Source: Bacteroidota bacterium | GTDB taxonomy: Bacteria; Bacteroidota; Bacteroidia; Cytophagales; Cyclobacteriaceae | Direction: 5' to 3' | Length of the DNA: 64,000 bases | Assembly (NCBI GenBank): GCA_022567155.1 | Contig: JADFHN010000002.1 | Span: forward strand, 1 to 64,000 | Shown: in pieces, positions 16,334 to 63,998 of the stretch | Layout of the letters: each line of letters starts with the position of its first letter | How positions within the stretch are numbered: the stretch's first letter is position 1 | Notes under the pieces: model-generated | Told to the model about the DNA's origin: nothing | The model's database searches: none | The model's input: the letters and a program-made list of their open reading frames with translations, nothing else | Position numbers and translations under genes: made by a program

Positions 16334-17555
16334 ATCACAAAAACCTTCCGGATTTGAAGCTCTTGCGCAGGAAACAGCACTTTATCCGCAGGAAATGTTT
16401 GCCAAAATCAAAAAGAATCAAAAATCATTTTTTATAGGCATCCCAAAGGAAATTGCATTTCAGGAAAATAGAATATGTCTGACACCGGAAGGAGTACATC
16501 TGCTCGTAAATAACGGGCATCAGATATGGATTGAATCAAACGCAGGCAAGAAAGCAAAATTTGAGGACAATGAATACAGCGAAGCGGGAGCAAAAATCGT
16601 GAACTCGGTCAAAGAAGTTTATCAGGCAGATATAATCCTGAAAATTGAGCCGCCCACATTATCGGAGATCGATTATTTCAAACCCGGACAAACCCTGATA
16701 TCGGCCCTTCAGATCGGAAATCAGACCGTGGAGTATTTACGTGCGATACTTTCAAAAAAAGTAACGGCATTGGCGTATGAATTTATTGAAGACAAAGTGG
16801 GCGGGTTTCCGATTATCCGTGCAATGAGTGAGATTGCCGGCACCGCGGCCATAATTATTGCATCCGAATACCTTAGCAGTGTCCATGAAGGAAAGGGATT
16901 GCTACTTGGCGGTATTTCGGGTGTACCACCTGCAAAAGTAGTGATCATAGGTGCAGGCACAGCTGCCGAACATGCTGTACGGTCGGCTCTGGGGCTGGGA
17001 GCTGAAGTAAAAGTATTTGATAATCACCTTTACAAGCTTCGCCGCCTGAAGCACATTATTGGAAGCCAGATTTACACCAGCACAATCGATACCATCACCC
17101 TTGCGGAATGCCTCAAAACCACAGATGTTTTAATCGGCGCATTGCGTGCCGAAAAGGGGAGAAGCAGTATCGTAATTACGGAAGATATGGTAATGAATAT
17201 GAAGCCGGACTCATTTATCATTGACCTGAGTATCGACCACGGCGGATGTGTGGACACCTCTAAGCTTACGACACTGGAAAATCCGATATTCAGAAAACAC
17301 GGTGTCATTCACTATTGTGTGCCCAATATTGCCTCGAGGGTTGCCCGCACCGCCTCTACGGCGCTAAGCAATATTTTCACTCCAACCATCCTGCGTGCGG
17401 GTGAAGAAGGCGGAATCAATGAGATGATTTTTAACCATAAGTGGTTTCTTAATGGTGTGTATGCCTACAAAGGGGCCCTGACAAACATGCATATTGCAAA
17501 CAAGTTCGGGCTTGAATGCCGCGATCTTAGCCTGCTGCGGGCAGCAAGGTTTTAG
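16326..17555 (+). CDS. ald: Alanine dehydrogenase / NAD(P) transhydrogenase alpha-like
   Basis: A 409-residue protein. After an extra N-terminal stretch of about 35 residues comes the AlaDH/PNT N-domain (FIGIPKEIAFQENRICLTPEGV), then the NAD-binding Rossmann region VVIIGAGTAAEHAVRSALG from about 204, and SIDHGGCVDTS near the substrate site. AlaDH converts L-alanine to pyruvate and ammonium. The family also includes transhydrogenase subunits, but no pntB is adjacent, so AlaDH is favoured. Its extension makes it longer than the usual 370 residues. Confidence 0.85.
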   Translation: MAESQKPSGFEALAQETALYPQEMFAKIKKNQKSFFIGIPKEIAFQENRICLTPEGVHLLVNNGHQIWIESNAGKKAKFEDNEYSEAGAKIVNSVKEVYQADIILKIEPPTLSEIDYFKPGQTLISALQIGNQTVEYLRAILSKKVTALAYEFIEDKVGGFPIIRAMSEIAGTAAIIIASEYLSSVHEGKGLLLGGISGVPPAKVVIIGAGTAAEHAVRSALGLGAEVKVFDNHLYKLRRLKHIIGSQIYTSTIDTITLAECLKTTDVLIGALRAEKGRSSIVITEDMVMNMKPDSFIIDLSIDHGGCVDTSKLTTLENPIFRKHGVIHYCVPNIASRVARTASTALSNIFTPTILRAGEEGGINEMIFNHKWFLNGVYAYKGALTNMHIANKFGLECRDLSLLRAARF

Positions 17556-17564
17556 CCGGTGAGC

Positions 17565-20210
17565 TTATAACTCTGCCAGCGCAACTTCAAGGGCTTTTAT
17601 CTTCACCAAGGCATCAGCCTGCTTTTTGCGTTCATTTTCTATGACATTTTGCGGAGCATTTTGCACAAAACGTTCATTATGCAGTTTTTTCTCTACTGAA
17701 GCTAGAAAACCCCTTATATAATCCAGCTCCCTGGTAATGTTTTCCTTTTCTTTTTTTACATCTATTCCCCTGGTGGCAGGAATAAAGAACTCGTCTTTAC
17801 CGATGACAAATCCCAGATTTGGGCCTTCTTTTTCATTTACTTCCACAAAAGATTTTAGGTAAGCAAGCTTGGTAATAACAGGTAAAAATCTCCGGTAACT
17901 CCTGAGATCTCCTTTCAGATGGAGCTCAAGGTGCTGCTTTGCAAGTATATTTTTAGAATTTCTGATATTCCTAACTTGTGATATTACTTCAAAAGCTTTT
18001 TTCGCTTCATCAAGAATCACCTTGTCATGTTTCTCAGGTTGTGGCCAGGAAGCTACAATAATGCAATCCTTTTCGTCTCTTTCCCTGATCTGATGCCATA
18101 TTTCTTCGGTAATAAACGGCATAAAGGGATGCAGCAACCGGATCACATTCTCGAAAAAAGTAACGGTCGCTTCATAAGTTTTCCTGTCAATAGGTTTTTC
18201 ATAGGCAGGTTTGATCATTTCAAGATACCAGGAGCAGAAATCATCCCAGATAAAAGAATAGGTGATCATCAGCGCATCTGATATCCTGAACTTATCGTAT
18301 TGCTCATTGAGGTGTTTGAGTATCTCATCGAACCGTTGCTGAAACCAGAGTATTGCTGTTTCGTTTGCTTCAGGCATCTCTACACCACTTTCGATTTTCC
18401 ATCCTTTCACCAGCCTGAAGGCATTCCATATCTTATTTGCAAATTTTCTTCCCTGCTCACACAGCTTAACGTCGAAAAGGAGATCATTGCCTGCAGGCGA
18501 ACTGAATAGCATGCCTGTGCGTACACCATCGGCTCCGTATTTTTGAATCAACTCCAGCGGATCCGGCGAATTACCAAGCGATTTAGACATTTTTCTGCCC
18601 TGCTTATCCCTTACTATTCCGGTAAGATATACATTGTTGAATGGCCGCTCATCCATGTATTCGTATCCGTAAATGATCATCCGTGCCACCCAGAAAAAAA
18701 GGATCTCAGGAGCCGTGACCAGGTCGTTTGTTGGATAATAGTATGAAATATCATTATTGCCCGGATTCTTAATCCCGTCGAACACGGTGATTGGCCAGAG
18801 ACCGCTGCTGAACCAGGTGTCAAGCACATCTTCATCCTGTATCAGGTCGTCGGCCGTTAGTTGCATGTTTCGGGTGTCTTTTTGAGCCTGGATCAGAGCT
18901 TCTTCTTTAGTTTCTGCAACAAAAACCCTGGCGTCCGGATCAGCGGGATTTTCTGAAGTGAGGTAATATGCAGGAATCCGATGGCCCCACCATAACTGCC
19001 TTGATATACACCAGTCGCGCACATTTTCCATCCAATGCCGGTACATATTCTTGAACTTGGAAGGTACGAGTTGCACCGTATCATTCATAACACTATTGAG
19101 CGCCGGCTTGGTCAACTTATCCATTTTTACATACCACTGCAACGACAGCCTGGGTTCTACAACGGCCTCGGTTCTTTCCGAAAAACCGACATTGCTCACG
19201 TAGTCTTCAATTTTTACGATATAACCGGCATGCTTCAGGTCCTTTACAATTTCTTCCCGTGCTTCAAACCGGTCTTTCCCGATATATAACTGTGCATTGC
19301 TGTTCAATGTCCCGTCATCATTAAAAATATCAATAACCTCAAGATTATGTTTTATCCCCAGGTCATAGTCATTCATGTCGTGTGCCGGGGTCACTTTAAG
19401 GCAACCCGTACCAAATTCCATATCCACATAACTATCTTTAATAATCGGGATGGACCTGTCTATTAATGGCACGATGGCTTTTTTCCCTTTTAAATGACGA
19501 AAGCGTTCATCGTTGGGGTGTATGCAAATGGCGGTATCGCCCAGGATGGTTTCGGGCCGTGTGGTGGCAATCGTAAGAAAACCATCCTCCCCTTCGATGT
19601 TGTACTTCACATAGTAAAGCTTTGAAGCCACCTCTTTATGAATAACTTCGTCATCAGCAAGGGCAGTCAGGCTGGCCGGGTCCCAGTTTACCATTCGGTA
19701 TCCACGGTAGATGTTTCCTTTTTTATAGAGATCAACAAATACGTTGATTACCGAATCATACAGGTCAGGCTCCATGGTAAATCGTGTACGATCCCAGTCG
19801 CAGGAAGCACCTAGTTTTTTCAACTGTTCAAGAATGATCCCGCCATATTTTTCGGTCCATGCCCAGGCATGTTTTATAAACTCTTCACGCGTAATATCTT
19901 GTTTTCTGATACCCCGGTCTTTCAGCATTTTTACTACCTTTGCCTCGGTGGCAATAGAAGCATGATCAGTACCCGGTATCCAGCACGCTTCCTTACCCAT
20001 CATTCTGGCTCTACGTATAAGAACATCCTGGAGGGTATTGTTTAGCATGTGTCCCATGTGTAACACGCCAGTGACATTCGGAGGCGGAATTACTATGGTA
20101 TAAGGTTCCTTTTCAGGGTTGGGTTCGGAGTGGAAAAATCCCTGATCGAGCCAGTGACGGTACCATTTGTCTTCTACTTCTTTCGGATTATATTTTGCTG
20201 AAAGCGACAT
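17565..20210 (-). CDS. valS: Valyl-tRNA synthetase
   Basis: An 881-residue class I synthetase. The HIGH motif is HMGH at 51-54 inside [22 protein letters not shown] occurs intact near residue 540 ([11 protein letters not shown]). The editing domain lies between them with [17 protein letters not shown], the anticodon domain follows, and the C-terminal coiled-coil arm ([19 protein letters not shown]) is present. Length is normal. It charges tRNA-Val. It stands alone, convergent with the alanine dehydrogenase gene only 9 bp away. Confidence 0.97.
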
Positions 20211-50499: not shown

Positions 50500-51387
50500 C
50501 TATTTCAGTTTGTTACGGATCATAAAATTATCATACATCTCTTTAAAATCCTCCACTTCCGGAGAAAGCCGGATGGCCTCCTGGTAGCAAAAAATGGCGT
50601 CAATCAGCAGATCCTGCTGTTCGTAAAAACCAGCCAGAATGATCTGATCAAGAGACGATTCCTGACTGATCTCCTGCATTAATGGAAGTAATTCGGACTG
50701 AAGAATGTCTATTTCATTATCAGAAAGCGTGCTGATCACATGTTCACCGGATTGGACTTCTGCATTTTCTTTTAGCGACACGCGTATAATTAATGTATTT
50801 TCCTGATTCAGTTCGGCCAGATCCAGGTCCAGAACAAATCTGTTTGCATTTGTTTCTTCCTGTAACAGTACATCTTCAAAAATACCCATCACCGTGACCA
50901 CATATGTGTTTTCATCCTGCAACGGTTTCCAGGGCAAAATCACTTTCCTGTTCAGCACGTTGGCATTTGAAGGTAACAACAAGTGGATTTTTTGCTCAGC
51001 GCCTCTTGTGACTACTTCTTTTTCGGTGTAAGGCACAGCGGATTTTTTTTCAAAGGTATTGAATACAAATTCAGTGTATTTGGCAGCAATTCCCTTTTTC
51101 TTCAGCCCGATTGTTGACTCAAGTTTACTGATTTCAAAAACTCCCGGGTTTATCAATGCGGTGGTTTTGCCGCTATTATGCACCAGGCCCAGATAGGCGT
51201 CGTCGGCAATCCGGATCCAATCACCGATGTTAAACGATACGCCTTTTTTAACCATCTGCCATTTCGTTCCTGATTCTTTTTTATACTGATTAGAACCTTT
51301 GTTGACCATAACCCTGAATACATATTCCTGGCAAAAGCACGCTGATGATGCACAAATACTGAAAAAAGCGATGAGTATGGTACGCAT
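50500..51387 (-). CDS. Secreted FecR-like protein with C-terminal helical repeat
   Basis: A 295-residue protein with a signal peptide ending near CFCQ (about 1-20), then a FecR-like beta-rich segment (FNIGDWIRIADDAYLGLVHNSGKTTALINPGVFEIS), a middle Ig-like part, and a C-terminal TPR-like pair (IILAGFYEQQDLLIDAIFCYQEAIRLSP). FecR-type domains bind signals or polymers at the envelope. No sigma factor is near. It ends the leftward series and could be co-regulated with the cyclase gene 112 bp upstream. Confidence 0.7.
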   Translation of the reverse strand: MRTILIAFFSICASSACFCQEYVFRVMVNKGSNQYKKESGTKWQMVKKGVSFNIGDWIRIADDAYLGLVHNSGKTTALINPGVFEISKLESTIGLKKKGIAAKYTEFVFNTFEKKSAVPYTEKEVVTRGAEQKIHLLLPSNANVLNRKVILPWKPLQDENTYVVTVMGIFEDVLLQEETNANRFVLDLDLAELNQENTLIIRVSLKENAEVQSGEHVISTLSDNEIDILQSELLPLMQEISQESSLDQIILAGFYEQQDLLIDAIFCYQEAIRLSPEVEDFKEMYDNFMIRNKLK

Positions 51388-51499
51388 AATGAAACGAAAG
51401 ATTAAAATTAAGACATTTTTATAAAATAAGGGGATAATTCGAGATGGTGCTTGTAGTCTGAACAGGAGAAGAGAAAGTAAAGTTCTGATAAATAGGGCA

Positions 51500-53731
51500 C
51501 TAACTTTTTGAAAAGCCAGTCCCGGAGTGGCTCTGCATAGAATTCACCCTATCTCTTGCTTTTTCAATCAATTTCTCAAACCGTTCATCCTGTCGTAAGG
51601 AGTTGAACAAAGGATCGACTGCCGCATACGAATATTCTGTCCATCCGGCTTCAAACGCTTCTTCAAGCCATTTATACGCATTTTTTTTATCTCCCTTTAC
51701 CGCATAAATCTGGGCAATTTCATACCTGAATTTATACGACATTTCTCCCCGTGCAATGCGGTCTGTATTATACGTGAGTTTATAGCTGAATAGCTCATCC
51801 GCAATGCCTGTCATGTTTCCAATATAGTAAATATATCCGATCAGATTATAGATATAGGGTAAATCCGCATAATCAATTTCTCTTCCTTTCATCAGATCAA
51901 GTATAAACGAGGATGTTTTAATTGTATTGGTTATTTCTTCCTGAATCAGCCGTTGCAGCAGCATCAGCAATTTGTCGCTATCGTCATTACCAATGAACCC
52001 CAGCTTTTGCGAAACGGAAAAAGAGGTTTCGGTATCATAGACGATTACAGAAATTAACCATTTCAATAGCAGGGAATTGACGTGGTTGGGATTGATAATC
52101 AATGCTTTTTCAAGATATTCACTTGCTTTGGGCATGTTGTTGAGCCTGTAGTAAGTGGCTGCGAAGCTAAACCAAAGATCAGTATTCATCGGATCGTGCC
52201 ATTGCGCATCGGATAACAAAATCAGGGCTTTATCTAATTGACCGGTACGATAGTACAACCGGCTCAGGTTGATGACCGCCTCGATATTTTTGTCGATATC
52301 AACCGCTTTTTGAAATTCCTGCATGGCTTTCAGTGTATTCCCGTTTATACTGTAGTAAAGCCCCATAGATTTATAACCGCTTGAATTATCAGGTTCTTCC
52401 TGTTGCACAATTCGGGCGTGACGGTAGGCCGAATCAAGCCAAAGATCTTTGGCTTTAGACTTTTGGGCCAACTGGCTGAAGGCATCACTCAGGCCGGCAT
52501 GGGCAAGCGTAAACTCCGGATCAAGTCTAAGCGCTTCGTTAAATAATTCCATCGCGCTGATGTTATCCTGTTCCGTATAACGCGAATAATACTCTTTTCC
52601 CTTCAGATACAGGTCATACGCTGTCATGTTCAGCGTTGGCCGCTTTCCAATTTTTTTAACTTCATCGGCGGTAACCTCGGCCTTTAGCGCTTCTGCAATT
52701 GATATGGCCACTTCGGTTTGAATGGTGAAGATATCTTCAAAAGATTTGTTATAGACATTCGTCCATACTACTTCCTCTGTTTTTGCATTGATCAGCCTGG
52801 CGGTTATCCGGATCCGGTCGGCATCTTTGCGTACGCTCCCAATGAGGAGATTTGATACGTTTAATTCCTTGCCGATGTCCTTAAACGTTTTATTCTGGTA
52901 TTCGTATTTCCTGAGATTAGAGCGGTCGATAACCTTCAGGTCCCTGATTTTCAGCAGCTGATTGAGAATATCTTCCGTAATGCCGATGCTGATGTACGCA
53001 TTTGCGTCATCATTACCTATATTTTCAAAAGGCAGGACCATTACCGTTTTATCTTTATCCCATTCGGGTGAAATGCCGGTAGTAGAACTGAATTCAAATT
53101 TGTATAATACGAGCAGAATCAGAATAAAAAACAAGATTGCGGAAATCCATTTAATGATTTTCCTGTGTCCAGCTTCCCGGATAATTTCTTCTTTTTTCTT
53201 TCTGAAATAAGCTTTACCGGGAACCGATACGAAATCAAGCATTATGGCGTAAATCCTGATCTTTGATTCGGTATTCTTGAATTTTATTTCACCCTGATAG
53301 CAGGTATCTATTTCCCGGATATTTCTGATTTCATGAAATACAGTTTCTGAAATATAGATACCCTGCGAGGGAGCAATGTTTTCAATTCTGGAAGCAATGT
53401 TTACGCCGTCTCCTAATACATCTTTATGGGAGACCACAATTTCGCCAAGGTGTATTCCGATACGCACTTTCAGTGTCGGGTCATCTTTGAGTTGCTGTTG
53501 AATTTCTTTGGCACAAAATACGGCTTTGGAAGCCGTTGGGAATATGGCAAGTATCCCGTCGCCGATTTCTTTGACATACCTGCCTCCGTGTTTTTTAATG
53601 AACGGTTTTTGAATATCCCGGTTTTTATCCAGGATTTCCAGCGCTCTTTGTTCGTCTTTACCCATCAGGGCTGTGTAACCGATAATATCGGTGAACATGA
53701 TTGCGGCCAGCTTTCGGGTTGAGTCGGTCAT
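51500..53731 (-). CDS. Class III adenylate cyclase with membrane helix, TolB-like and TPR domains
   Basis: A 743-residue signalling protein. The class III cyclase domain (1-165) keeps all catalytic residues: metal aspartates D15 and D58, adenine-selecting K54 and D104, transition-state N111 and R115. A membrane helix lies near 195-213, then a TolB-N-like region (MVLPFENIGNDDANAYISIGITEDILNQL) near 230-355, and about six TPRs up to 700. It should make cAMP inside the cell while the TolB/TPR part senses outside. No cAMP receptor is seen in the window. Confidence 0.88.
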   Translation of the reverse strand: MTDSTRKLAAIMFTDIIGYTALMGKDEQRALEILDKNRDIQKPFIKKHGGRYVKEIGDGILAIFPTASKAVFCAKEIQQQLKDDPTLKVRIGIHLGEIVVSHKDVLGDGVNIASRIENIAPSQGIYISETVFHEIRNIREIDTCYQGEIKFKNTESKIRIYAIMLDFVSVPGKAYFRKKKEEIIREAGHRKIIKWISAILFFILILLVLYKFEFSSTTGISPEWDKDKTVMVLPFENIGNDDANAYISIGITEDILNQLLKIRDLKVIDRSNLRKYEYQNKTFKDIGKELNVSNLLIGSVRKDADRIRITARLINAKTEEVVWTNVYNKSFEDIFTIQTEVAISIAEALKAEVTADEVKKIGKRPTLNMTAYDLYLKGKEYYSRYTEQDNISAMELFNEALRLDPEFTLAHAGLSDAFSQLAQKSKAKDLWLDSAYRHARIVQQEEPDNSSGYKSMGLYYSINGNTLKAMQEFQKAVDIDKNIEAVINLSRLYYRTGQLDKALILLSDAQWHDPMNTDLWFSFAATYYRLNNMPKASEYLEKALIINPNHVNSLLLKWLISVIVYDTETSFSVSQKLGFIGNDDSDKLLMLLQRLIQEEITNTIKTSSFILDLMKGREIDYADLPYIYNLIGYIYYIGNMTGIADELFSYKLTYNTDRIARGEMSYKFRYEIAQIYAVKGDKKNAYKWLEEAFEAGWTEYSYAAVDPLFNSLRQDERFEKLIEKARDRVNSMQSHSGTGFSKS

Positions 53732-54007
53732 CAGGTAATATTTGCCGGTAAAAGTTACAAAAAATTAATGGTAGTGCGTTTGGAAACATGTAATTCCAAG
53801 GATTTTTACTTCTGTGGGCAAGCTATTCACATGGATGGCAGTTGATCAGCAACTTTTTTGAATACAACTGGTTGCCCATTGCAGACTAATTGTGTGAATT
53901 GTATCCATTGTGCCTTTTATGCGTAGCTTCCTGACTACACACTAAACACAAAAGATGCTGATTGATAAATATTGCCGTCCGGTGATAACTCAAAACATTA
54001 TCAGGTA

Positions 54008-57000
54008 TTATTTTTCACTCCATTTTAGTTTAGAAAGCACATGTTGAAAATCATCCGTTGTGACTGTTCTTGTGTTATATGTTTTCCGGTAGGAAGTATG
54101 TTTTGGATCCGATGGATAGGATTCATTTTCTCCGTATGGGTATTTTGTCATTCCATGAAAGGGAAGCGGACCTACCGTATTACCCGTAGCGGTATTCATA
54201 TCTCCGTCTTTCACCCAACCGATACTATAGATAAGGAAATCTCTTTTCCAGCCTTGTGGGAGATCAGGTAATTTTGAAGCATCAAAACGGATACTGATTT
54301 CGTCGCCCCCATTCAAAATAATGTACATGTCATCCGGTTCCATCAGCAGTTCACGTACATCCCCGTACCGGGTATAGTTTCCGGTCAGATCACGCCATTT
54401 TTGCCCTTCTGAAATGTCATAATAATCGAACCAGTGCGGACCGTAACGACCTCCTTTACGGTACATCCTTGAGAAGCCCCGGTAGTGAAGATCGGCCTCG
54501 GTGGGGGTAAGTGTGGTTGACTGTACGGATGCATCTTGATCCAGATTGGCAAAGAAGATATGATCCCAGTAGATCTCCATGTTCGTACGGATACGCACCC
54601 TGCGATCTGCTGTAAGAAATTTATCAGTCAGGTCCACGACAACCGTTTTATTTTTTCCCATCGGAAATCCAACATTCGTAATTACAGTTTGCCATTCGCC
54701 GTTTTCATTTATTACCTGCAGAAAAGGTGGTATCAGTTTCAACGCTGCAGATTGTGAAATGGCCACATTGATGCTGGCATCGGTAGGGAATATCCAGCCA
54801 TTCAAAAATAGAAAGAGGTTATCAGGATTGTCACTGGCTACATTTCCAAGGTCAAGAATAAGATCATGCAATTCAGTAATACCCTGAAACTTGGTGTGTC
54901 TAAAAGCGGAGATATATCGGTTGTCTTTTTTGCTTATGAAAGACAGGAGATCGGACCCGTTGCCGTCTTTGACAGATACAGGAGTTTGTTTTTCGGAAAC
55001 GGAATATATCCGGTGACCGGGGAAGGGAGGAGGGGTGAAACGTTCATCCACAAATATATCCGATTTTGCAGGATGATCCACCGCCACAAGACGAAGCTTA
55101 TCAACATAGATGGCTTCCCACAACTCACTCGTTACCCTGATTGAATATCCATTATCCTGAAGTTGCAGCATGTCGTCCGGAATTTTAATATATTCTTCCG
55201 AGGCATCAGGAAACGCATATGCCGTAGTACCCCCCATGATGCCCAGCGGCATCCCAAGAGCGCTTCGCCACATCATATCTTTCACAAATACATATTTTTC
55301 GCCATTCCAGGTATAAAGAAATGGACAGGAACCTTTCAGGATTTGTTCTTCAACCAGGTCCTGATCGCTTCTGGGGGTAAATATATTTTGCGGAACTCCG
55401 TTCGTCCATAAAATACGCACAACATCAGCTTTTGACCGAAAACCCAATCCGAAATGTACCACCGGTTCGGTAACGACTTTCATCTGATACAGGTCACCGG
55501 CACGGACTTCCAACTTGGCGCCGATACCGAAATGATTGTTTTTTCCGCTGCCGGTACTCAGGCCTACAAGCTGAATTTTAAGGAAGTGGTTTGCATTTCC
55601 ACCATCATTCCGGATGAGTCGTACACCACCATGCAATCCGGTAATGAACATATCCAGATCACCGTCCTCGTTATAATCGGTGATAGCAATCTGATGGCCG
55701 CTTAAAAGGTCTGGCGGTAATAATTCTGAAACATCCTTATAGATGCCTTCCGCCTCATTATGAAAGAGAAAAACGCCTTTTCCTCCTTTTTTTAATGGTT
55801 CGCCCACAACCAAAAGGTCAAGAAAGCCGTCGTTATCAAAATCAAAAAATGTGGCATCATGGCCGGCCATTTGTTGCAGCACTTCAAAAACCTCCTGTGT
55901 GATGTTATCTGTTTCAAACGTTCCGTCGCGTTTATTCCGGTACAATAAATAGGGGCTTCCGTCCAGCGAAGTAATAAAAAGATCAAGATATCCATCGTTA
56001 TTGTAATCGCCAATGGCTACCGCGCCCGATTCCCCTTTGTCACTCAATCCGCATTCGGAGGTAATATCTTTGAATACGCCCTCCCTCAGATTAGTGTATA
56101 AAATATTTTCTGCATCTGCATTAATTACGAAAAAATCCATATCCCCATCGTCATCAAAATCCCCGAAACCGGCGTCTGTGCTCCGGGCTTCGTTATTTGC
56201 TGCTGCAAGTTTTTCAGACTGGTCTTGAAAGGAACCATCACCGTTGTTACGGTACAAGCGGTTTTCTCCTGTGTTGGCAACAAACAGATCGAGGTCTCCT
56301 TCATGATCCATATCGAAAAACAGCGCTTTGTTGCCTGCTCTTGCCTTGCCGGTCATTGACTTTTCCGTTACATCAACAAATTTTCCCTCACCCAGATTCC
56401 GGTATAAAATATTGCCTTCCTCTTTCAGAATGTACAGGTCGGGTTTTCCGTCGTTATCGTAGTCGGCAAAGACGGCAGAATATTCTTTTCCGTTGTGATT
56501 TATGCCGGAATTTTCCGTATCGTCGGTAAACTTTCCAAGGTCGTTTCTGAACAGCCGAGGTGTATAAGCGGATTTTAAAACGGAATAGCTACCCAGGTAA
56601 AGGTCTTTGTCGCCATCACCGTCATAATCAGCCACAGCTATATAAGCGGGCAATATGGATTTGCTTGTTTTTTCTGGAGCGGGTAGCCCTGCGGCCTCCG
56701 TAGCATCGGTAAAGCGCAGGGTTTCAAGCAAGGATGTTCCTTCGCTCGTACCCGGCCAGAAATTTGATTCACCGAAAGTAATCACCGGAAAGCCGATCAG
56801 CGGGCCGCCGGGTCCTTCCAGTTCCTGCAATCCGGACTGATATAAGGAAGTAAGTTTAAGAAAGTTATGAAATATCATAATAGGAGTGAGCGCATCTTCA
56901 GCATGGTCGCTTTGTAATAATTCAATGGCATTGTTGTAGAATTGATCTGCGTCTTCCGGAAATACGGGTATCTGGCGGTGTACTTCCTCCAGATGCATAC

Positions 57001-57577
57001 GTGCTTCGTCATAGTCCTGAAGCTTTACGAGTAATTCTGCAAGCTGAAGTCGCGGCAGCATATTTGCCGGAACATTTTCAGTGACTTTTGTTAAATACGT
57101 TCTCCGGTTTTGCAGCGAATTTTCATCAGTTGACCTGCTGTATAACTCTGCAAGTGTGTAAAGTGACTTTACATGATCGGGTTCGTTAGAGATGTTTCCT
57201 TTCAGTTCATCAATGGCTTTTTCTTTTTGATTACTCATTTCATACACTTTCACCAGGATCAAGCGTATATTCGGGTCTTTGGGGCTCCTTTCAATGGCTT
57301 TTAGCAGCTCTGCTTCAGCCTCGGCATATTTACTCATCCGAAGATAAACCAGACCCAGGTTGGCATATCCCAGCGCTTCGTCCGGTACCAGTTCAATAAG
57401 CTTGCGAAATTCTGCCTCCGCTTCCTTGAGCTTGTTTTCTTCGAGATAAGCAAGCCCCAGGGTCCGAACCGAGATCATATCCCAATAAACTTCTTTATTT
57501 TTAATCTTCTTTTCTTTGCAGCTATAGAATAATACCTGTGTTGTTATCCAAAGCAATAAAACAAATTTAATTCTCAT
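54008..57577 (-). CDS. Giant lipoprotein: TPR + FG-GAP propeller + ASPIC/UnbV + extra C-terminal domain
   Basis: A 1189-residue protein with lipoprotein signal (LFYSC, cysteine 20). TPRs span about 30-210; FG-GAP/VCBS repeats with Ca-binding D-x-D-x-D-G loops (DYDGDGDKDLYLG, DFDDDGDMDFFV and others) span about 300-650; an ASPIC/UnbV region follows near 665-745 (GIGAKLEVRAGDLYQM, VRILWTNG). The last 440 residues, from about 750 (CPFLYTWNGEKYVFVKDMMWRSALGMPLG), form a further beta-rich domain I cannot name. Its role is unknown; surface binding or redox partner is inferred. Confidence 0.8.
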   Translation of the reverse strand: MRIKFVLLLWITTQVLFYSCKEKKIKNKEVYWDMISVRTLGLAYLEENKLKEAEAEFRKLIELVPDEALGYANLGLVYLRMSKYAEAEAELLKAIERSPKDPNIRLILVKVYEMSNQKEKAIDELKGNISNEPDHVKSLYTLAELYSRSTDENSLQNRRTYLTKVTENVPANMLPRLQLAELLVKLQDYDEARMHLEEVHRQIPVFPEDADQFYNNAIELLQSDHAEDALTPIMIFHNFLKLTSLYQSGLQELEGPGGPLIGFPVITFGESNFWPGTSEGTSLLETLRFTDATEAAGLPAPEKTSKSILPAYIAVADYDGDGDKDLYLGSYSVLKSAYTPRLFRNDLGKFTDDTENSGINHNGKEYSAVFADYDNDGKPDLYILKEEGNILYRNLGEGKFVDVTEKSMTGKARAGNKALFFDMDHEGDLDLFVANTGENRLYRNNGDGSFQDQSEKLAAANNEARSTDAGFGDFDDDGDMDFFVINADAENILYTNLREGVFKDITSECGLSDKGESGAVAIGDYNNDGYLDLFITSLDGSPYLLYRNKRDGTFETDNITQEVFEVLQQMAGHDATFFDFDNDGFLDLLVVGEPLKKGGKGVFLFHNEAEGIYKDVSELLPPDLLSGHQIAITDYNEDGDLDMFITGLHGGVRLIRNDGGNANHFLKIQLVGLSTGSGKNNHFGIGAKLEVRAGDLYQMKVVTEPVVHFGLGFRSKADVVRILWTNGVPQNIFTPRSDQDLVEEQILKGSCPFLYTWNGEKYVFVKDMMWRSALGMPLGIMGGTTAYAFPDASEEYIKIPDDMLQLQDNGYSIRVTSELWEAIYVDKLRLVAVDHPAKSDIFVDERFTPPPFPGHRIYSVSEKQTPVSVKDGNGSDLLSFISKKDNRYISAFRHTKFQGITELHDLILDLGNVASDNPDNLFLFLNGWIFPTDASINVAISQSAALKLIPPFLQVINENGEWQTVITNVGFPMGKNKTVVVDLTDKFLTADRRVRIRTNMEIYWDHIFFANLDQDASVQSTTLTPTEADLHYRGFSRMYRKGGRYGPHWFDYYDISEGQKWRDLTGNYTRYGDVRELLMEPDDMYIILNGGDEISIRFDASKLPDLPQGWKRDFLIYSIGWVKDGDMNTATGNTVGPLPFHGMTKYPYGENESYPSDPKHTSYRKTYNTRTVTTDDFQHVLSKLKWSEK

Positions 57578-57695
57578 TGTAACCTCAAAAAATAGTTAAC
57601 TTCCTGTATCAATGAATGTTTTAAAATCCTGTTACCACCGGATGTTTAATCCGGTAAAATGAATGTTTAAAAATAGCTGAATTCGCCCAAAGGAG

Positions 57696-58559
57696 TTAGT
57701 TAATATTTTGATTTATTTCAGCCAGATAAGTTTTCAACGTCAGGTATTCCGCATTCATTTCCTGTCGGCTTCCTTCCATCAGGGCCAGTCTTTGAAGATA
57801 GGTATAAAATATGGAGTGATCGGCGGCATTTATAAAAGAAATGCCTGCTTTAGTATCTCCTTCGCCTATTACGTCGTTTTCTTTTGGTTTTATTTTCTTC
57901 GAATATTCAACGGCTCTTGAAAAAATCACATGTGCATTATCCGGATCGCCCTCTTTCCAGTTTATGTATCCTAGTAGAAGATGTGCTTCCACGCTTTTGA
58001 AATTAGACTTGATCACATCTGAAAAATAATTTTTCGCAACATCGTACTGTCCTCTTACAAGAAAGATTTGTCCCAGGTATAGCAGTGGTGCAGATTCTTC
58101 CTTATTCAATTCGAGTGTTTTACGAAATTCGGTTTCTGCTTTGTCGATATCAAAAAAATCTTCCAGGTCATGACTCAGATACAAGTAGCCTAAACGGAAA
58201 TGTGCACGGGTATTTATTGGATTGATATCAAGCAGTTGTTTCCACTTTTTTTCTGCTTCGTGGTATTGGCCGGTTACAAAATGTATGTTTCCGAGGTAGT
58301 ACAGTGCATCTTCGTGCTTGTCATTGAGTTGAAGGGCTTTCTTATATCCTGAGATGGCATTTTGCCAGTCGCCTGCAATACGATATTGGGTTGCCTGCCG
58401 GTAGTATTGCCAGAAATCACGGATTTGTTTTTTTTCAGCAAGGTTTTTTTGCGGTTTTTCTGTGGTGTCATTTTCCACTGACGGTTTAATCTTTAAATAA
58501 GTAAGTAAAAGAAACAGCATTATGAAAACGGCAATGATAATGAGATACAGTTTTTTCAT
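57696..58559 (-). CDS. Membrane-anchored TPR protein
   Basis: A 287-residue protein with one N-terminal membrane helix (about 1-23), then five to six tetratricopeptide repeats (GDWQNAISGYKKALQLNDKHEDALYYLGNIHFVTGQYHEAEKKW and on). TPRs are protein-binding scaffolds. The start overlaps the end of the ASPIC/UnbV gene by 4 bp (ATGA), so the two are made together and likely act together, perhaps as assembly factor for the propeller proteins or the cytochrome. Confidence 0.85.
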   Translation of the reverse strand: MKKLYLIIIAVFIMLFLLLTYLKIKPSVENDTTEKPQKNLAEKKQIRDFWQYYRQATQYRIAGDWQNAISGYKKALQLNDKHEDALYYLGNIHFVTGQYHEAEKKWKQLLDINPINTRAHFRLGYLYLSHDLEDFFDIDKAETEFRKTLELNKEESAPLLYLGQIFLVRGQYDVAKNYFSDVIKSNFKSVEAHLLLGYINWKEGDPDNAHVIFSRAVEYSKKIKPKENDVIGEGDTKAGISFINAADHSIFYTYLQRLALMEGSRQEMNAEYLTLKTYLAEINQNIN

Positions 58560-60373
58560 ACCCCCGGTTCATTAATTTTACCCTCAATAATCTCCATATT
58601 TTGGTTAATATCGGCATTCAAAATGATTTGTTTCGTGCCGGCAGGCCAGATTACTTCAATGGTATCCACCCGGTTATTTTTCTCCAGGCCGAAATGCTGA
58701 ATCAGGCTGTTTTGCGAAAGATACGAACTCTGTGAACCCACTTGCCGGATCTGCACGGTTTCACCTGTCACCACGCGCAACTTAGCTCCAAGTGCGTAAC
58801 GGTTACTTTTTACACCCTGTAATGTTATTTTCAGCCAGTTGTTTTCGGTGCCCCCTTCGTTTCGCATCAGTACACCTGGTCCGACGTTATTTACCACAAA
58901 AATATCCATATCACCATCGTTGTCATAATCGCCAAATGCAGCGCCCCTGCCTACGTATTTTTCCTTGAATATATCGCCGCTCACCGAAGATACATCATAA
59001 AAACCTTCTTCCGCCCCACGGTTCCAGAAAAGCTGATCAGTCATCGGAATAAGAAGATGGGGGTTGTCATTTTGCTGGAAAGTGCTTCCATTAGTAACAA
59101 AAAGATCGAGTTTACCATCATTATTATAATCGAAAAATGAAGCTCCGAAACCAATATAATCAAGGGCAATTTGTCCCAGCCCATAGCGATCGGCTTCATC
59201 CATAAACCGGATATTTGTGCCGGAGACGTTATTTAGTTTACCAACCTGTGAAAGCAGGTTGCTGTAGAGTGCATTTTCCTGGGCTATCCAGTGTGTAATA
59301 AACATGTCCATGTCCGCATCGTTGTCCCAGTCTCCTATGCCGATTCCCATGGCGCCCCGGTAATCGGCAACGAGTGCAGAATGGCTTATATCTTCGAATG
59401 TTTCATTTCCAAGGTTTCGGTAAAGGATATTGTCCGAAACATCATTGGCTACGTACAGGTCGGGCCAGCCGTCTTCATCAAAATCGCACCAGGCGGCTGA
59501 CAAACTGCGCCCGTTTACGCCGTCAACACCGGCTTTTTTTGCTATCTCGGTAAAGGTTCCGTCTTTATTGTTACGAAAAAGTAAGTTGTGCGCTGGCGGA
59601 AAAGAAGAAGGATTTATGCTTGAAGGCACTTCTGTATCGTATTGCAGGGTTACATCCTGTGCATCCTGATAGGAATATTGTACGTACCCGCAAACATAAA
59701 GATCGGGAAACCCATCGCTGTTAAAATCAGCCCATGAAGCGCCTGTCCAGAATCCGTTTTGATCACCGATTCCTGAAAGAATGCTTATATCAGTAAAAGT
59801 ACCGTCGCCATTGTTTTTGTACAACCTGTTTGTCCCATAACATGATACAAACAGGTCTATCCATCCGTCATTGTTATAGTCACCCCATGCGGGCGCCATC
59901 GCCATTGCGCGGAGATCTACCCCTGCTTCTTTGCTTACTTCTGTGAATGTGCCGTCACGATTATTGTGATACAGTGCACAATGTGCCGGTGAGTTTTGCA
60001 TTTCTTCCGGGGTCATTGTAACAGGGCCTGCTACATTTGCCACAAACAGGTCTAACCATCCGTCGTTATCATAATCTCCCCACGCGGCACCTGATCCCAT
60101 ATCCTCCGGCAGCTGGGTGGTGCGTTTGCCATAGAAATGGATAAAATCAATTCCAGCTTCTTTCGAAACATCCTTAAACGTCACTTTCGAATAATCGGGG
60201 GGAATAGATCTTGAAAGCGCAGTTGTCAATCCTTCGATTTCTTCTCCGGGTTTATACATCTTCTTCACCGGCCTCAGCATCCAGAATATGGAGAATATGA
60301 TGATCAGGGCCAACAATCCAAGCCCGGATGTAATTACAACATACTTTTTGCGGCGTGATAGTTTCCTTCCCAT
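58556..60373 (-). CDS. CRTAC1-family protein (FG-GAP propeller + ASPIC/UnbV)
   Basis: A 605-residue protein: a membrane helix at about 12-34, FG-GAP/VCBS repeats with acidic Ca-binding loops (WGDYDNDGWLDLFVANV, WGDYNNDGWIDLFVSC, DYDNDGDMDIFVVNN) and a C-terminal ASPIC/UnbV domain near 520-590 (ALGAKLRVVTGETVQIRQVGSQSSYLSQNSLIQHFGLE). Bacterial homologues are exported, of unknown function, and often neighbour multiheme cytochromes or TPR proteins. It lies 6 bp after the cytochrome gene. Confidence 0.88.
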   Translation of the reverse strand: MGRKLSRRKKYVVITSGLGLLALIIIFSIFWMLRPVKKMYKPGEEIEGLTTALSRSIPPDYSKVTFKDVSKEAGIDFIHFYGKRTTQLPEDMGSGAAWGDYDNDGWLDLFVANVAGPVTMTPEEMQNSPAHCALYHNNRDGTFTEVSKEAGVDLRAMAMAPAWGDYNNDGWIDLFVSCYGTNRLYKNNGDGTFTDISILSGIGDQNGFWTGASWADFNSDGFPDLYVCGYVQYSYQDAQDVTLQYDTEVPSSINPSSFPPAHNLLFRNNKDGTFTEIAKKAGVDGVNGRSLSAAWCDFDEDGWPDLYVANDVSDNILYRNLGNETFEDISHSALVADYRGAMGIGIGDWDNDADMDMFITHWIAQENALYSNLLSQVGKLNNVSGTNIRFMDEADRYGLGQIALDYIGFGASFFDYNNDGKLDLFVTNGSTFQQNDNPHLLIPMTDQLFWNRGAEEGFYDVSSVSGDIFKEKYVGRGAAFGDYDNDGDMDIFVVNNVGPGVLMRNEGGTENNWLKITLQGVKSNRYALGAKLRVVTGETVQIRQVGSQSSYLSQNSLIQHFGLEKNNRVDTIEVIWPAGTKQIILNADINQNMEIIEGKINEPGV

Positions 60374-60379
60374 AACCTA

Positions 60380-62473
60380 TCAGGACCCGGCCAGCTTTAC
60401 GGTAATCGTTTTTGTATCTTCCGAAAGCACTGACACCGGAGCAGTAAGCCCTGCATTTTCACCATACAGGAAATTAAGCATATACTGATCAAACTTTCTG
60501 TACATCAGTTTTGCAGTTATATGCAATTCGGTTATTTCCCTGTCAGGGGCTTTGAATTGAAATTCCTCCTTGGTTTGAGGTTCCACGTCCATAGGCTCTA
60601 AAGATGACGGACAGAAAAACGAAAAGCTTGCTTTATCGGAAAAACCCGGAAACAACGAACGCCGGTATCGAACGCCTACCATTTCCCAAAGGTTATGTTT
60701 GTCAATCAGATTGCCGTACTGATCTACCGGCTCGGCTTTGAAAATGAAGGTGCCGGGTTGGATAAAATAATCTTCGTCAACTTTGCCGGAAGTAAATATA
60801 ATGTTGTCTGACTGATCGGTTACTGTGATCTCAATCCATGCCTGGATGATATCCAGTGGTCCGGTAGGAAAATCGTGTCCGACTTTATTATTTGTAATAA
60901 TGGTCTGAAATTTTACCTCCTGGCCGGGACTGACATATTCCGGTACAATTAGTTCTACAGGAACGGCAGGTCCTTTTTTCCACTTATCAGCAATTTCAGG
61001 GATTTCAAATTCACCTCTGAGCCATTTATTTGTTAACGCAACATGCTCTTCAGCACCGGGAAGGTCCAGTGCAAGTGGCATAAACTGATTTGCCCCAAGA
61101 AAGCGGTGACTGCGGTGTTTTTTATCATTTTTGGTACGGTTATAATCCAGGTCGTCACCCCTGGCCGGATCGTTTGAATCCACCAGCGGCATGTGGCATT
61201 CGCGGCATTCGATCGTTTTTTGTGGCTCACCCGGATGGTTCCACCGGCTCTTACGCCAGTTGTCATATTGATTTTGCAGCTGCACCCATCCCACTTTGTT
61301 TATTTCTTCATCAATAAACTGTTTATGACATGAGGCACAGAATTCAGGACTTTTAAACATGCGGTGCTGCAGGCTTTCCACATGATACCGCGGATAAGAA
61401 CGGATCAGGAAATCACTGATAAACTTTGTGGTCTTACCTTCTGATAGTTCGTACAAATAGCGTTTGGGCTGCCCCATCACATAATTTGCATTGCCTTTTA
61501 CATCTGTTTCTTCAATCGCATGACAGGCAATACACGAAACTCCCTCCTGGTATCCATAGATATTGGTTAAGTCATCATCAGCAGTATAAATATTCTTTGA
61601 ACCTGAAAAAAGGGAGATGGGATCATGGCAACCACCGCAATATCGTGTAGATTCGGGGCCATTCTGTTGTCCCATAACACTTTGCACTGTTTGAAATCCT
61701 ATATCCATAGCAGCATAACGATGTGCGCTTACCTGCCACTCTTTAACAATTTCCTCATGACATCCTGTAGTCCCGCAACTTTGTGAACCTCCCAGCGACC
61801 TCGGATCAAATGCACCTCCGGTATTCGTGGTGGCCAGACTGGGTGCAAATGGCCGGTCTTCACCATAAATATAACTATAGTCTTCCGGGAATTCATTGTA
61901 AAACTTAACCGGCTGGTGGCCATATACCCACAGTGCAACCACTGCAAACAGCAGAACGGTAATAAAAAAAGTATTCCAAAGATACTTACTCTCTAATTTC
62001 ACAATAGGCTGCATAGCTTCCGAAATACGTGCCTTATAATCCCGGATTATTATTAATACCACATGGGGAAGAAGGAAAGCAATCAGGGTAAAAGTTGATA
62101 TGATATGAATCAGATCCCATGTTTGAGAAATTTTTGTCATGAAAACCGACTGATAAGTCAATATGAGACCCGAAATAGACGCAACTAAAACAATGACCAT
62201 GGAAACATACCCAGTAAGCTTATAATGGTTCATAGCCATTGCCCGGTACTTAAGCCAATGCCGTATCTGGTACCAAGCGAAGGGTATAATGAAAATAAGT
62301 CCGGTAATGGTATGCAGTAATACCATGATCTGGTTAGAAATGCTGAACGGCAGCAAATAAATGGAAAGCCCGGTTAGGGTTTCAAATAACAACAAACCCG
62401 AAACGAAAAGTAACAGCCCGTGTTTCCATTCTTTTTCTTTTAGATTTGTAAATTTTTTATTATTCATAGCCAC
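60380..62473 (-). CDS. Multiheme cytochrome c with b-type-like membrane domain
   Basis: A 697-residue protein. Residues 15-190 hold five membrane helices with histidines H54, H123 and H137, like a small cytochrome b. The external part has heme c motifs CGGCH (279-283), CIACH (314-318), CASCH (379-383) and CRECH (423-427), plus CGTTGCH (233-239), a CX4CH spacing. Residues from 470 form an Ig-like beta domain. The shape suggests an electron link from the quinone pool to the periplasm or surface. First gene of the cytochrome-CRTAC1-TPR unit. Confidence 0.87.
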   Translation of the reverse strand: MAMNNKKFTNLKEKEWKHGLLLFVSGLLLFETLTGLSIYLLPFSISNQIMVLLHTITGLIFIIPFAWYQIRHWLKYRAMAMNHYKLTGYVSMVIVLVASISGLILTYQSVFMTKISQTWDLIHIISTFTLIAFLLPHVVLIIIRDYKARISEAMQPIVKLESKYLWNTFFITVLLFAVVALWVYGHQPVKFYNEFPEDYSYIYGEDRPFAPSLATTNTGGAFDPRSLGGSQSCGTTGCHEEIVKEWQVSAHRYAAMDIGFQTVQSVMGQQNGPESTRYCGGCHDPISLFSGSKNIYTADDDLTNIYGYQEGVSCIACHAIEETDVKGNANYVMGQPKRYLYELSEGKTTKFISDFLIRSYPRYHVESLQHRMFKSPEFCASCHKQFIDEEINKVGWVQLQNQYDNWRKSRWNHPGEPQKTIECRECHMPLVDSNDPARGDDLDYNRTKNDKKHRSHRFLGANQFMPLALDLPGAEEHVALTNKWLRGEFEIPEIADKWKKGPAVPVELIVPEYVSPGQEVKFQTIITNNKVGHDFPTGPLDIIQAWIEITVTDQSDNIIFTSGKVDEDYFIQPGTFIFKAEPVDQYGNLIDKHNLWEMVGVRYRRSLFPGFSDKASFSFFCPSSLEPMDVEPQTKEEFQFKAPDREITELHITAKLMYRKFDQYMLNFLYGENAGLTAPVSVLSEDTKTITVKLAGS

Positions 62474-62728
62474 AGTATTTAAATCTCAGATATATCGTAA
62501 TTCATTTAAAAGCGTATAATTTATTGCATACTCCAAAATATTGATTTTTATAAAATGAAGCGGTGTAATTTAATTACTTTAATTAAAGAGAAATATGATA
62601 AAAGTCAGCTATGGTTGGAAAAATAATAATTGCATAGTAAGTGCAATGGTTGGTCGAAGCATAAACGTCTCGAAGACGATCGGGTACATGAGGTAGTGGC
62701 TGGCAATGGAATCAATGCTGTGATTGAT

Positions 62729-63673
62729 TTATCCACATGTACAATTTACCGGAGGTAATACATGCTGGTTTAAATTCATGTCAGTCAGTCTTTTTGTCCG
62801 GCTGTCAAAGCATTTGCTACAATCCGAAAATATTTCGATGTCCCACAAATCGGCAAATACCCTTCCTTTATTAAGCTGAATGCCGTATCCGAGCACCTGC
62901 TCCAGCGATGAAATAGATGGAGGTGAGAAATATCTGTTGGATTGTAGCCAGTCCATGGCCCCGTTTCCCGCCCTGGTGGGAATGATGACAATGCACTCGA
63001 CACCGGTTTCAAAAGCATAATCTATCGATCGCATAGCCCATTGCACGCCTTCTTTTTCTGTTAAAAACGGAGGTCGCAACAAAATAAATGTCCGCGTCGG
63101 AATGTTGTGTTTGTATAAAAAACGAACAGCCCTTTCAAAATCAACTATATCCATTCGTTTGTTAAGTTTTGAAAGTATCTGCGGATTCACCGTTTCCAGT
63201 CCGATAGCCATTTGCAACTCCGGTTTGATCTGATCACTAAACTCCAGGCAGCGCTCATCAATTAGCCTGGGATGACTTTCGACAATCAATGATTCAAAAC
63301 CTGCTACAAGTGATGTAATTTCTGCAAAATCTTCCGCGGGAATCGCCTGTTTGTCAAAGAAATTTCCATTGTTATACAATTTTAAATGTTTTACAGGAGT
63401 AAGCTGCGTCAGTGCCCATTTAATTTGCGCAGGTATGGCTCCCACGGGCACCGGTATATCGGTCGTGTTTTTCCAGAGGTCGCACATAAGGCAATGAAAA
63501 GCGCATTCCCGGTTTGTCAGAAAAATGGTAGCCACTTCTTCGATACGTCCGGGCCTGGTCCTTTCCAATTCAGTGTTTAAAGCGTAGGGTTTAAGCGGAT
63601 CGACCGGATTTTTTTCACCGCGTAGTTCCAGGATCCAGCTATCGTCTGTTTCAAAAGGAGGTATTTTATGCAT
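62729..63673 (-). CDS. Radical SAM protein with C-terminal cysteines
   Basis: A 314-residue radical SAM enzyme; the cluster motif CxxxCxxC is C57, C61 and C64 (CAFHCLMC). ETVNPQILSKLNKRMDIVDFERAVRFL and TFILLRPPFLTEKEG are barrel segments. Near the end lie SDCSKC and a final NCTCG, candidate ligands for a further cluster or metal. I chose the ATG at 63673 (MHKIPPF), which overlaps the upstream gene by 8 bp as elsewhere in the window; an ATG 19 codons earlier is possible. Substrate unknown. Confidence 0.85.
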   Translation of the reverse strand: MHKIPPFETDDSWILELRGEKNPVDPLKPYALNTELERTRPGRIEEVATIFLTNRECAFHCLMCDLWKNTTDIPVPVGAIPAQIKWALTQLTPVKHLKLYNNGNFFDKQAIPAEDFAEITSLVAGFESLIVESHPRLIDERCLEFSDQIKPELQMAIGLETVNPQILSKLNKRMDIVDFERAVRFLYKHNIPTRTFILLRPPFLTEKEGVQWAMRSIDYAFETGVECIVIIPTRAGNGAMDWLQSNRYFSPPSISSLEQVLGYGIQLNKGRVFADLWDIEIFSDCSKCFDSRTKRLTDMNLNQHVLPPVNCTCG

Positions 63674-63998
63674 ATAACGCCTGAAATTCCCTGCGATACT
63701 CACGCTCATGTTCAGGAAAGTGTGCTTCAAATGTATCTTTTGCTGCTACGCCATGCTGAAATCGCCTTTTCGAAAATACCGGCATATCCATGCCTGTGAT
63801 TGCTTTTACTCCTTGCGACACGATTTCACCTTTGAGTTTGTAAAGCTTTTCATGGCTCCATCCGGTCATTTCAATAAAAGGAATTCCCTCGGCGATCTCA
63901 ATCACATTGGGTAGTGTATATGGGCTGAAGCCTTCAAATCCAAACTTTTCTGCCGGAGCACAGGTACGGGTGTATGCACGGCTTAACCCACCTGAATA
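63666..63998 (-). CDS. Asparagine-synthetase-like protein, C-terminal fragment
   Basis: The frame stays open to the right edge, giving about 110 residues that start YSGGLSRAYTRTCAPAEKFG. The segment FEGFSPYTLPNVIEIAEGIPF, then SHEKLYKLKGEIVSQGV and PVFSKRRFQHG, follows the order seen at the end of asparagine synthetase C-terminal domains. These enzymes adenylate a carboxylate and transfer an amine; homologues also act in natural-product and peptide modification. The ATP site lies beyond the window, so the family call is tentative. Coupled by an 8-bp overlap to the radical SAM gene. Confidence 0.5.
   Translation of the reverse strand, partial: YSGGLSRAYTRTCAPAEKFGFEGFSPYTLPNVIEIAEGIPFIEMTGWSHEKLYKLKGEIVSQGVKAITGMDMPVFSKRRFQHGVAAKDTFEAHFPEHEREYRREFQALYA

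Follow-up and report, generated by a model that had tools for sequence, protein, structure and literature searches.

We describe a leftward gene cluster of a Bacteroidota bacterium that is probably one version of an extracytoplasmic redox system widespread among bacteria, in which alternative membrane electron-transfer modules would serve a complex of propeller and tetratricopeptide-repeat (TPR) proteins, with an asparagine-synthetase-like protein and a radical S-adenosylmethionine (SAM) protein as accessories. The stretch of DNA analysed, here called the window, comprises bases 1-64000 of the 117-kb contig C57, which belongs to an assembly of 4.09 Mb. We refer to its genes as CYT697, FGA605, TPR287, TFA1189, RSAM333, ASN452 and AC743, and leave a gene for a 295-amino-acid protein unnamed. 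The system is apparently undescribed and, to judge from sequence comparison, keeps the same gene company in distantly related phyla. An open reading frame (ORF) check finds all eight consecutive same-strand genes proposed by an earlier, sequence-only reading of this DNA, and the ORF coordinates bear out its spacings of 6 bp and -4 bp within CYT697-FGA605-TPR287; Pfam and NCBIfam scans agree with its domain labels, apart from a FecR-like label for the 295-residue protein, which has no match to either collection at E 0.001. The genes and domains that make up the conserved cluster are as follows.

54008..57577, minus strand: TFA1189, 1189 residues, TPR, FG-GAP and ASPIC domains, with a near-invariant Cys20 and its own C-terminal domain
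54011..55336, minus strand: the C-terminal domain of TFA1189, used as the specific marker (alignment A8); structure model with pLDDT 76
57696..58559, minus strand: TPR287, TPR protein of 287 residues, TPR domain, N-terminus hydrophobic by eye
58556..60373, minus strand: FGA605, 605 residues, FG-GAP propeller and ASPIC/UnbV domain (Pfam), N-terminus hydrophobic by eye
60380..62473, minus strand: CYT697, membrane cytochrome of 697 residues with a cytochrome c554-like domain; four-histidine helices and a pentahaem domain
61904..62473, minus strand: residues 1-190 of CYT697, membrane domain (predicted helices, hydrophobic segments)
60404..61807, minus strand: residues 223-690 of CYT697, c552-like fold and C-terminal beta-sandwich domain (structure and profile match)
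62729..63730, minus strand: RSAM333, radical SAM protein with a distant likeness to RaSEA, 333 residues, exact start uncertain
63666..63998, minus strand: 3' end of ASN452, asparagine-synthetase-like; the whole gene, C57:63666-65024, finishes beyond the window

A profile built from eight cytochromes recovers 356 relatives in species genomes, and the locus counts given below use the best 80 of these. We find a relative of FGA605 directly downstream of CYT in 77/77 loci with at least 1 kb following, and the complete CYT-FGA-TPR triad in 60/60 loci with at least 2.7 kb following, 3 and 20 of the 80 loci, respectively, having been set aside as lying on contigs too short for the count. Of the 66 loci showing both FGA and TPR, 29 have the two in a single open frame (the other 14 of the 80, where the two are not both seen, are left out, L063 for a reason other than shortness), and the three distant cytochromes scanned, of ~900-980 residues, carry TPRs after the haem domain; CYT, FGA and TPR are thus tied together by two kinds of fusion, FGA-TPR and CYT-TPR. 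The 80 loci are spread over Bacteroidota groups, Gemmatimonadota, Acidobacteriota, Marinimicrobia, KSB1, Planctomycetota, Poribacteria, Latescibacterota, Krumholzibacteriia, Myxococcales/Deltaproteobacteria, Ardenticatenales, Acidimicrobiia, Verrucomicrobia and Pseudomonadales, and their carriers include a Rhodothermus-like genus (g44) as well as many metagenome-assembled genomes.

The conserved unit extends beyond the triad. Recurrent neighbours were clustered by similarity, and those named here were scanned for families. The seven-gene order FGA562-ASN-RSAM-CYT-FGA605-TPR-TFA, where FGA562 is an FG-GAP/ASPIC protein by Pfam scan, is kept in four other Bacteroidota loci (L061, L065, L066 and L067, the last beginning inside FGA562), and L057 and L070 show the same order as far as their contigs reach. 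ASN and RSAM also precede the triad in the Gemmatimonadota loci L080 and L092 and follow it in the deltaproteobacterial L107, with part of ASN seen in L117. FGA605 matches FG-GAP_3 (3.5e-52) and UnbV_ASPIC (1.1e-18) in Pfam and human CRTAC1 (9etn, E 1.1e-25), and the FG-GAP and ASPIC domains of CRTAC1-like proteins are found above cut-off in FGA605, FGA562 and TFA1189 alike. Taken together, the counts for triads, gene order and genome-wide co-occurrence make the cluster more than a product of chance. The neighbourhood check that the earlier reading had proposed for the 697-, 605-, 287- and 1189-residue proteins, run here across bacteria, finds them co-occurring, and its view that the genes belong together holds, by order and genome-wide co-occurrence, for the cytochrome, both propeller proteins, TPR, RSAM and ASN, and fails for the cyclase and the 295-residue gene.

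CYT697 combines a membrane domain with a pentahaem domain. We aligned 64 cytochromes, the window's included, hand-picked from ~100 available (alignment A4), and find five c-haem motifs in 64/64, the first of them CX4CH in 64/64. His251, His364, His456 and His533 are likewise present in 64/64 and His453 in 58/64, and the membrane histidines His54, His72, His123 and His137 are kept in 63-64/64, L055 alone lacking three of them. Membrane helices are predicted at residues 3-16, 19-40, 45-76, 83-111, 117-150 and 152-185, with five hydrophobic segments, and on this pattern the membrane domain is predicted to be a four-histidine b-type domain binding haem b. CbcL-type inner-membrane cytochromes of Geobacter have a comparable architecture, a b-type membrane domain joined to a multihaem c-type domain, with a c-haem domain and haem number that differ from those of CYT697. 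In the structure model of CYT697 (pLDDT 85), residues 223-690 superpose on Thermochromatium tepidum c552 (5ze8) with Z 24.4 and an rmsd of 3.5 Å over 341 residues, and the profile match between the two has E 1.7e-7. The five motifs and the c552 fold both place this domain in the pentahaem c552/ExtKL/PHC superfamily, and the ExtKL equivalog (NF040886) scores 26.3 bits against a cut-off of 250. CYT697 is thus like c552 and ExtKL/PHC in its five c-haem motifs, in the fold over 223-690 and in an HxxPTG histidine, and unlike c552 and ExtKL in being joined to a membrane domain, in its CX4CH first motif and in having 18% identity to 5ze8.

A second membrane protein appears in the same gene company. 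This UnbU-like protein of ~285 residues belongs to the NQR2/RnfD/RnfE family (PF03116), where the L158 protein scores 39.1 bits and the cut-off is 27.7; four of the five distinct proteins scanned pass this cut-off, and that of L185 scores 24.6 bits (the gene in L194 is the same as that in L036 and is counted once). In 16/17 loci, UnbU has an FGA-like gene on its own strand no more than 400 bp away, and in genome G155 the UnbU-FGA pair adjoins a triad. A search of the window's own genome found no UnbU-like protein.

We then find that both membrane proteins track TFA across genomes. TFA1189 has a near-invariant Cys20 that is lipobox-like by eye, and its C-terminal domain, by which TFA was sought, gives no Foldseek match at E 0.001 or better; weak discoidin/CBM-like matches to its model (Z 6.2-8.8, mostly over ~residues 97-267) were not used. 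The samples comprise 296 Bacteroidota genomes from 140 genera and 150 Gemmatimonadota genomes, with CYT sought by a single protein in the former and by a profile in the latter; both sets mix window-type and distant cytochromes. UnbU matches were counted at E 2e-78 or better, leaving uncounted those of G045, G103 and G292 (E 1e-19 to 1e-36) and of G374 (3e-16). Among the Bacteroidota, TFA occurs in 29 genomes, the CYT family in 20, UnbU in 14 and ASN in 18, and the TFA genomes are exactly those with CYT or UnbU (29/29, none outside, 5 with both; Fisher 8e-41, or 4e-37 with the three weak Bacteroidota UnbU matches included). Counted by genus, the same pattern holds in 14/140 genera (1.5e-19), and all 18 ASN genomes have TFA. 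Gemmatimonadota repeat it, with TFA in 37 genomes, CYT in 26, UnbU in 19 and CYT or UnbU in 37, the overlap being 35 (2e-29); here ASN occurs in 16 genomes, 15 of them with TFA and every one with CYT or UnbU, and two contigs hold all four markers within ~19 kb (G311:C8) and ~15 kb (G323:C10). When 50 of the 80 CYT loci, hand-chosen and mostly longer, were traced to their genomes, TFA was present in 46/50. ASPIC domains by themselves occur in 77/158 Bacteroidota genomes sampled, a base rate that does not account for how TFA is distributed. CYT, ASN and TFA are all missing from the seven other sampled genomes belonging to the window's family, so the distribution is patchy. On this pattern, TFA is apparently the hub, or common partner, of the system, and the UnbU and CYT data together suggest that haem-type and, by family, flavin-type membrane proteins substitute for or accompany each other.

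Distant cytochromes contribute to these counts. With window-type CYT alone, CYT or UnbU covers 19/29 TFA genomes in Bacteroidota (5e-23) and 23/37 in Gemmatimonadota (2e-16). The distant proteins have 26-28% identity over most of their length in the Bacteroidota loci compared, f37 included; of 27 distant loci checked, 26 have five c-haem motifs after three to five hydrophobic segments, and the remaining one, L226, has a stop in the frame of the match. A same-strand FGA match lies within 200 bp in 12/13 Gemmatimonadota loci. We conclude that the distant proteins share CYT697's build and do not always share its partner. A FAD oxidoreductase of family PF12831 stands just before the CYT-TPR fusion in f37 (L043:7321-8934, with neighbours in L047 and L053), and L050, L051 and L052 have an ORF of similar size at this place.

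ASN452 and RSAM333 form a pair that travels both with the triad and apart from it. ASN452 matches PF00733 (Asn_synthase) at 6e-10 with 39.7 bits against a cut-off of 21, and its SxGxDSG and DGxGGDEN motifs are conserved; it is set apart from glutamine-dependent asparagine synthetases by a score of 36.9 against 267.1 bits and by the absence of a conserved N-terminal catalytic Cys in 9 sequences. RSAM333 scores 101.9 bits against the RaSEA cut-off of 212.15 (TIGR01210) and has Cys76, Cys80 and Cys83 of a CX3CX2C motif invariant in 10/10 sequences, along with three further invariant Cys; we call it radical SAM-like because of this motif and the TIGR01210 match, with the reserve that PF04055, at 25 bits, stays below the gathering score of 29.5. 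No solved relative of either protein was found at E 0.01. In 17/17 Bacteroidota loci that were fetched by ASN from other genomes, RSAM is nearby, separated from it in three by a gene on the opposite strand, and a similar flavin-enzyme gene is near the pair in 15/17; the five scanned, which include those of L156, L158, L163 and L165, resemble monooxygenases or halogenases. The window's genome gave no match to the flavin monooxygenase at E 1e-5, in a search without positive control. What the pair makes is probably a product or modification of the amide type. ASN-RSAM together with the monooxygenase/halogenase-like gene is seen in L155-L170 (except L162) and in L080, and in many Bacteroidota genomes stands apart from CYT; the maturation role that the earlier reading had in mind for such enzymes is therefore only conjectural.

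The remaining genes of the run lie on either side of this cluster. Two are inside the window.

50500..51387, minus strand: 295-residue protein, a neighbour not conserved with the system
51500..53731, minus strand: AC743, 743 residues, guanylate/adenylate (class III) cyclase and TPR domains, a neighbour not conserved with the system

Others lie past the window's end, where the remainder of ASN452 is followed in the same leftward run by FGA562, a 190-residue lipoprotein remnant and an Alg9-like mannosyltransferase, GT515. The 295-residue gene and GT515 have no match in any of the 80 loci, of which 38 and 43, respectively, reach far enough to show them. The 190-residue lipoprotein (C57:66756-67328; L009:4756-5328, minus strand) matches the N- and C-terminus of FG-GAP-type proteins of ~1,100 residues, full-length genes for which stand upstream of FGA562 in L061 and L065, and it looks like the product of an internal deletion. 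The window's own genome, G000, has 102 FG-GAP_3 matches and nine ASPIC matches. Two adjacent plus-strand genes at L009:15727-17022 and 17193-18137 resemble, by eye, an ergothioneine-type EgtB/EgtD pair. Promoters and terminators are no commoner than in shuffled sequence and support no claim on transcripts, and a plasmid search returned 17 records with distant partial matches, none reaching 80% coverage.

Several observations weigh against a single widespread redox system. The exact TFA pattern requires the distant CYT relatives: window-type CYT is present in 8/20 Bacteroidota and 13/26 Gemmatimonadota CYT genomes, and the rest (12 and 13) have distant ones only. A same-strand FGA match within 200 bp accompanies distant CYT in only 4/14 Bacteroidota loci, and in three scanned f37 loci the FAD oxidoreductase takes FGA's place, 3, 3 and 49 bases upstream of CYT. 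TFA is missing from 4/50 CYT genomes; among the Gemmatimonadota it stands without either membrane protein in two genomes, and two others carry CYT or UnbU and lack TFA. TFA is also often away from CYT, its marker being in 26/80 loci and in 13/31 with long flanks, and related genomes are not independent, which the genus count corrects in part. The merged FGA stretch of L063 has double the length, so that TPR seems to be preceded there by an additional FGA-like gene. Domain scans recognise a redox cofactor domain in neither FGA nor TFA. The membrane domain of CYT697, finally, has the conserved histidines expected for two b-haems and scores below the Pfam cut-offs (DUF4405, 16.8 vs 26.7; b561, 10.0 vs 30.1), and we do not assign it to either family.

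Other explanations of the same genes can be set against this evidence. We consider it unlikely that the cluster is biosynthetic, with ASN, RSAM and the monooxygenase making a reactive small molecule or modified peptide that the propellers and membrane redox proteins finish, export or detoxify. Such a reading takes its comparison from enediyne clusters, where the UnbU/UnbV pair may finish, export or detoxify the product, and it draws on the UnbU-like gene beside an ASPIC/UnbV-type gene in 16/17 loci, on the flavin gene in 15/17 ASN-RSAM loci (five scanned) and on the nesting of ASN within TFA genomes; it is opposed by the 11/29 Bacteroidota TFA genomes without an ASN match and by the failure to find UnbU or the monooxygenase in the window's genome, with no absence claimed for PKS, NRPS, precursor peptides or exporters, at which no search was aimed. 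Rather improbable, too, is a respiratory substrate oxidoreductase, a complex that would oxidise or reduce one particular compound outside the cytoplasm: Pfam and NCBIfam scans recognise no catalytic domain in FGA605, TPR287 or TFA1189, and the FAD oxidoreductases that speak for it, one of them translated and found to have a Tat-like start, adjoin the distant f37 cytochromes. We give little credence to an extracellular electron-transfer conduit, in which a pentahaem domain akin to those of ExtKL, c552 and nanowire cytochromes would pass electrons to minerals or partner cells. The fold match to c552 favours it, and one study connects T. tepidum c552 with ExtKL-type cytochromes, the archaeal AvECN nanowire and the pentahaem cytochromes of cable bacteria, and calls the role of c552 unclear, with sulfur metabolism suggested (PMC11976967). 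Against a conduit, the haem domain of CYT697 is tethered to a membrane domain. The carriers moreover include g44, which is like Rhodothermus, a genus of aerobic heterotrophs.

The last two alternatives concern the neighbours. The earlier reading had proposed cyclic AMP (cAMP) control, and the cyclase gene does lie 276 bp downstream of TFA1189 on the same strand. The cyclase domain is matched in 1/80 CYT loci, 40 of which reach past its position, and this one is a sister locus, L056, with a cytochrome 91% identical; the whole cyclase protein also matches L074, on the opposite strand, and the cyclase is not seen in L061, L065, L066 and L067, all of which extend beyond its place. Control by the adjoining cyclase is rejected on these counts, and a cAMP-controlled exported redox complex is very improbable. 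Least probable of all, to the point of being negligible, is an accessory island of unrelated neighbours with a coincidental composition: two of the eight genes are indeed not conserved with the rest, and the idea is contradicted by the 60/60 triads, the four loci with the same seven-gene order and the genome-wide pattern in a second phylum.

The extracytoplasmic redox system that we favour could work as follows. CYT697, with its four-histidine b-type domain and pentahaem domain, would exchange electrons with the quinone pool, and the pentahaem domain would relay them to or from the anchored FGA605 propeller and TPR287. TFA1189, a probable lipoprotein that repeats the TPR, propeller and ASPIC plan, would be the common partner. 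In other lineages the cytochrome would be replaced or accompanied by the UnbU-like protein of NqrB/RnfD type, which has an FG-GAP/ASPIC gene of its own next to it, and ASN-RSAM, often with the flavin monooxygenase/halogenase-like gene, may make or modify something that the complex uses, either a molecule or a residue. The earlier suggestion of an exported redox complex fits this anatomy of the parts, whose extracytoplasmic location is inferred.

Known systems share individual features with this one. ASPIC/UnbV is a Pfam name, and the UnbU/UnbV genes of enediyne clusters likewise place an ASPIC/UnbV-type propeller beside an NqrB/RnfD-family membrane protein; unlike them, the present system adds CYT-FGA-TPR and TFA, and enediyne synthases were not searched for here. 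Flavinylated extracytosolic systems use DUF4405 cytochromes with four central histidines or NqrB/RnfD-like subunits, and thus also have two kinds of membrane carrier, haem and NqrB/RnfD, serving extracytosolic proteins (PMC11334425); their partners differ from the FG-GAP/ASPIC, TPR and TFA proteins found here, where FMN-bind proteins were not searched for. A CRTAC1-family FG-GAP gene is described beside genes for hydrazine-synthase homologues, which are haem proteins, and this hints, independently of our data, that propellers of this kind keep company with haem proteins; those described there are different ones, and the part of the description available includes no TFA, TPR or membrane module (PMC12758564). 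Searches of the open-access literature listed no recognisable description of the triad, of TFA or of the whole combination.

ASPIC/UnbV proteins are common, occurring in about half of the Bacteroidota genomes sampled and having a human relative in CRTAC1, and we know of no general function for these propellers in bacteria. Here such propellers are paired with each of two membrane redox proteins that are unrelated to one another, with TFA wherever either occurs in the Bacteroidota sample; what was a vague annotation thereby becomes a redox hypothesis open to test, and cultured strains may be available among the Rhodothermus-like carriers. A bolder reading, which we hold only tentatively and think somewhat doubtful, is that these genes encode an extracytoplasmic redox machine of a categorically new kind, in which FG-GAP/ASPIC (CRTAC1-like) propellers would be the dedicated partners of interchangeable membrane carriers, either a quinol-pentahaem cytochrome or an NqrB/RnfD-like protein, with an obligatory TPR-propeller lipoprotein and ASN-radical SAM chemistry of their own. 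If true, it would be the first general function assigned to the ASPIC/UnbV family.

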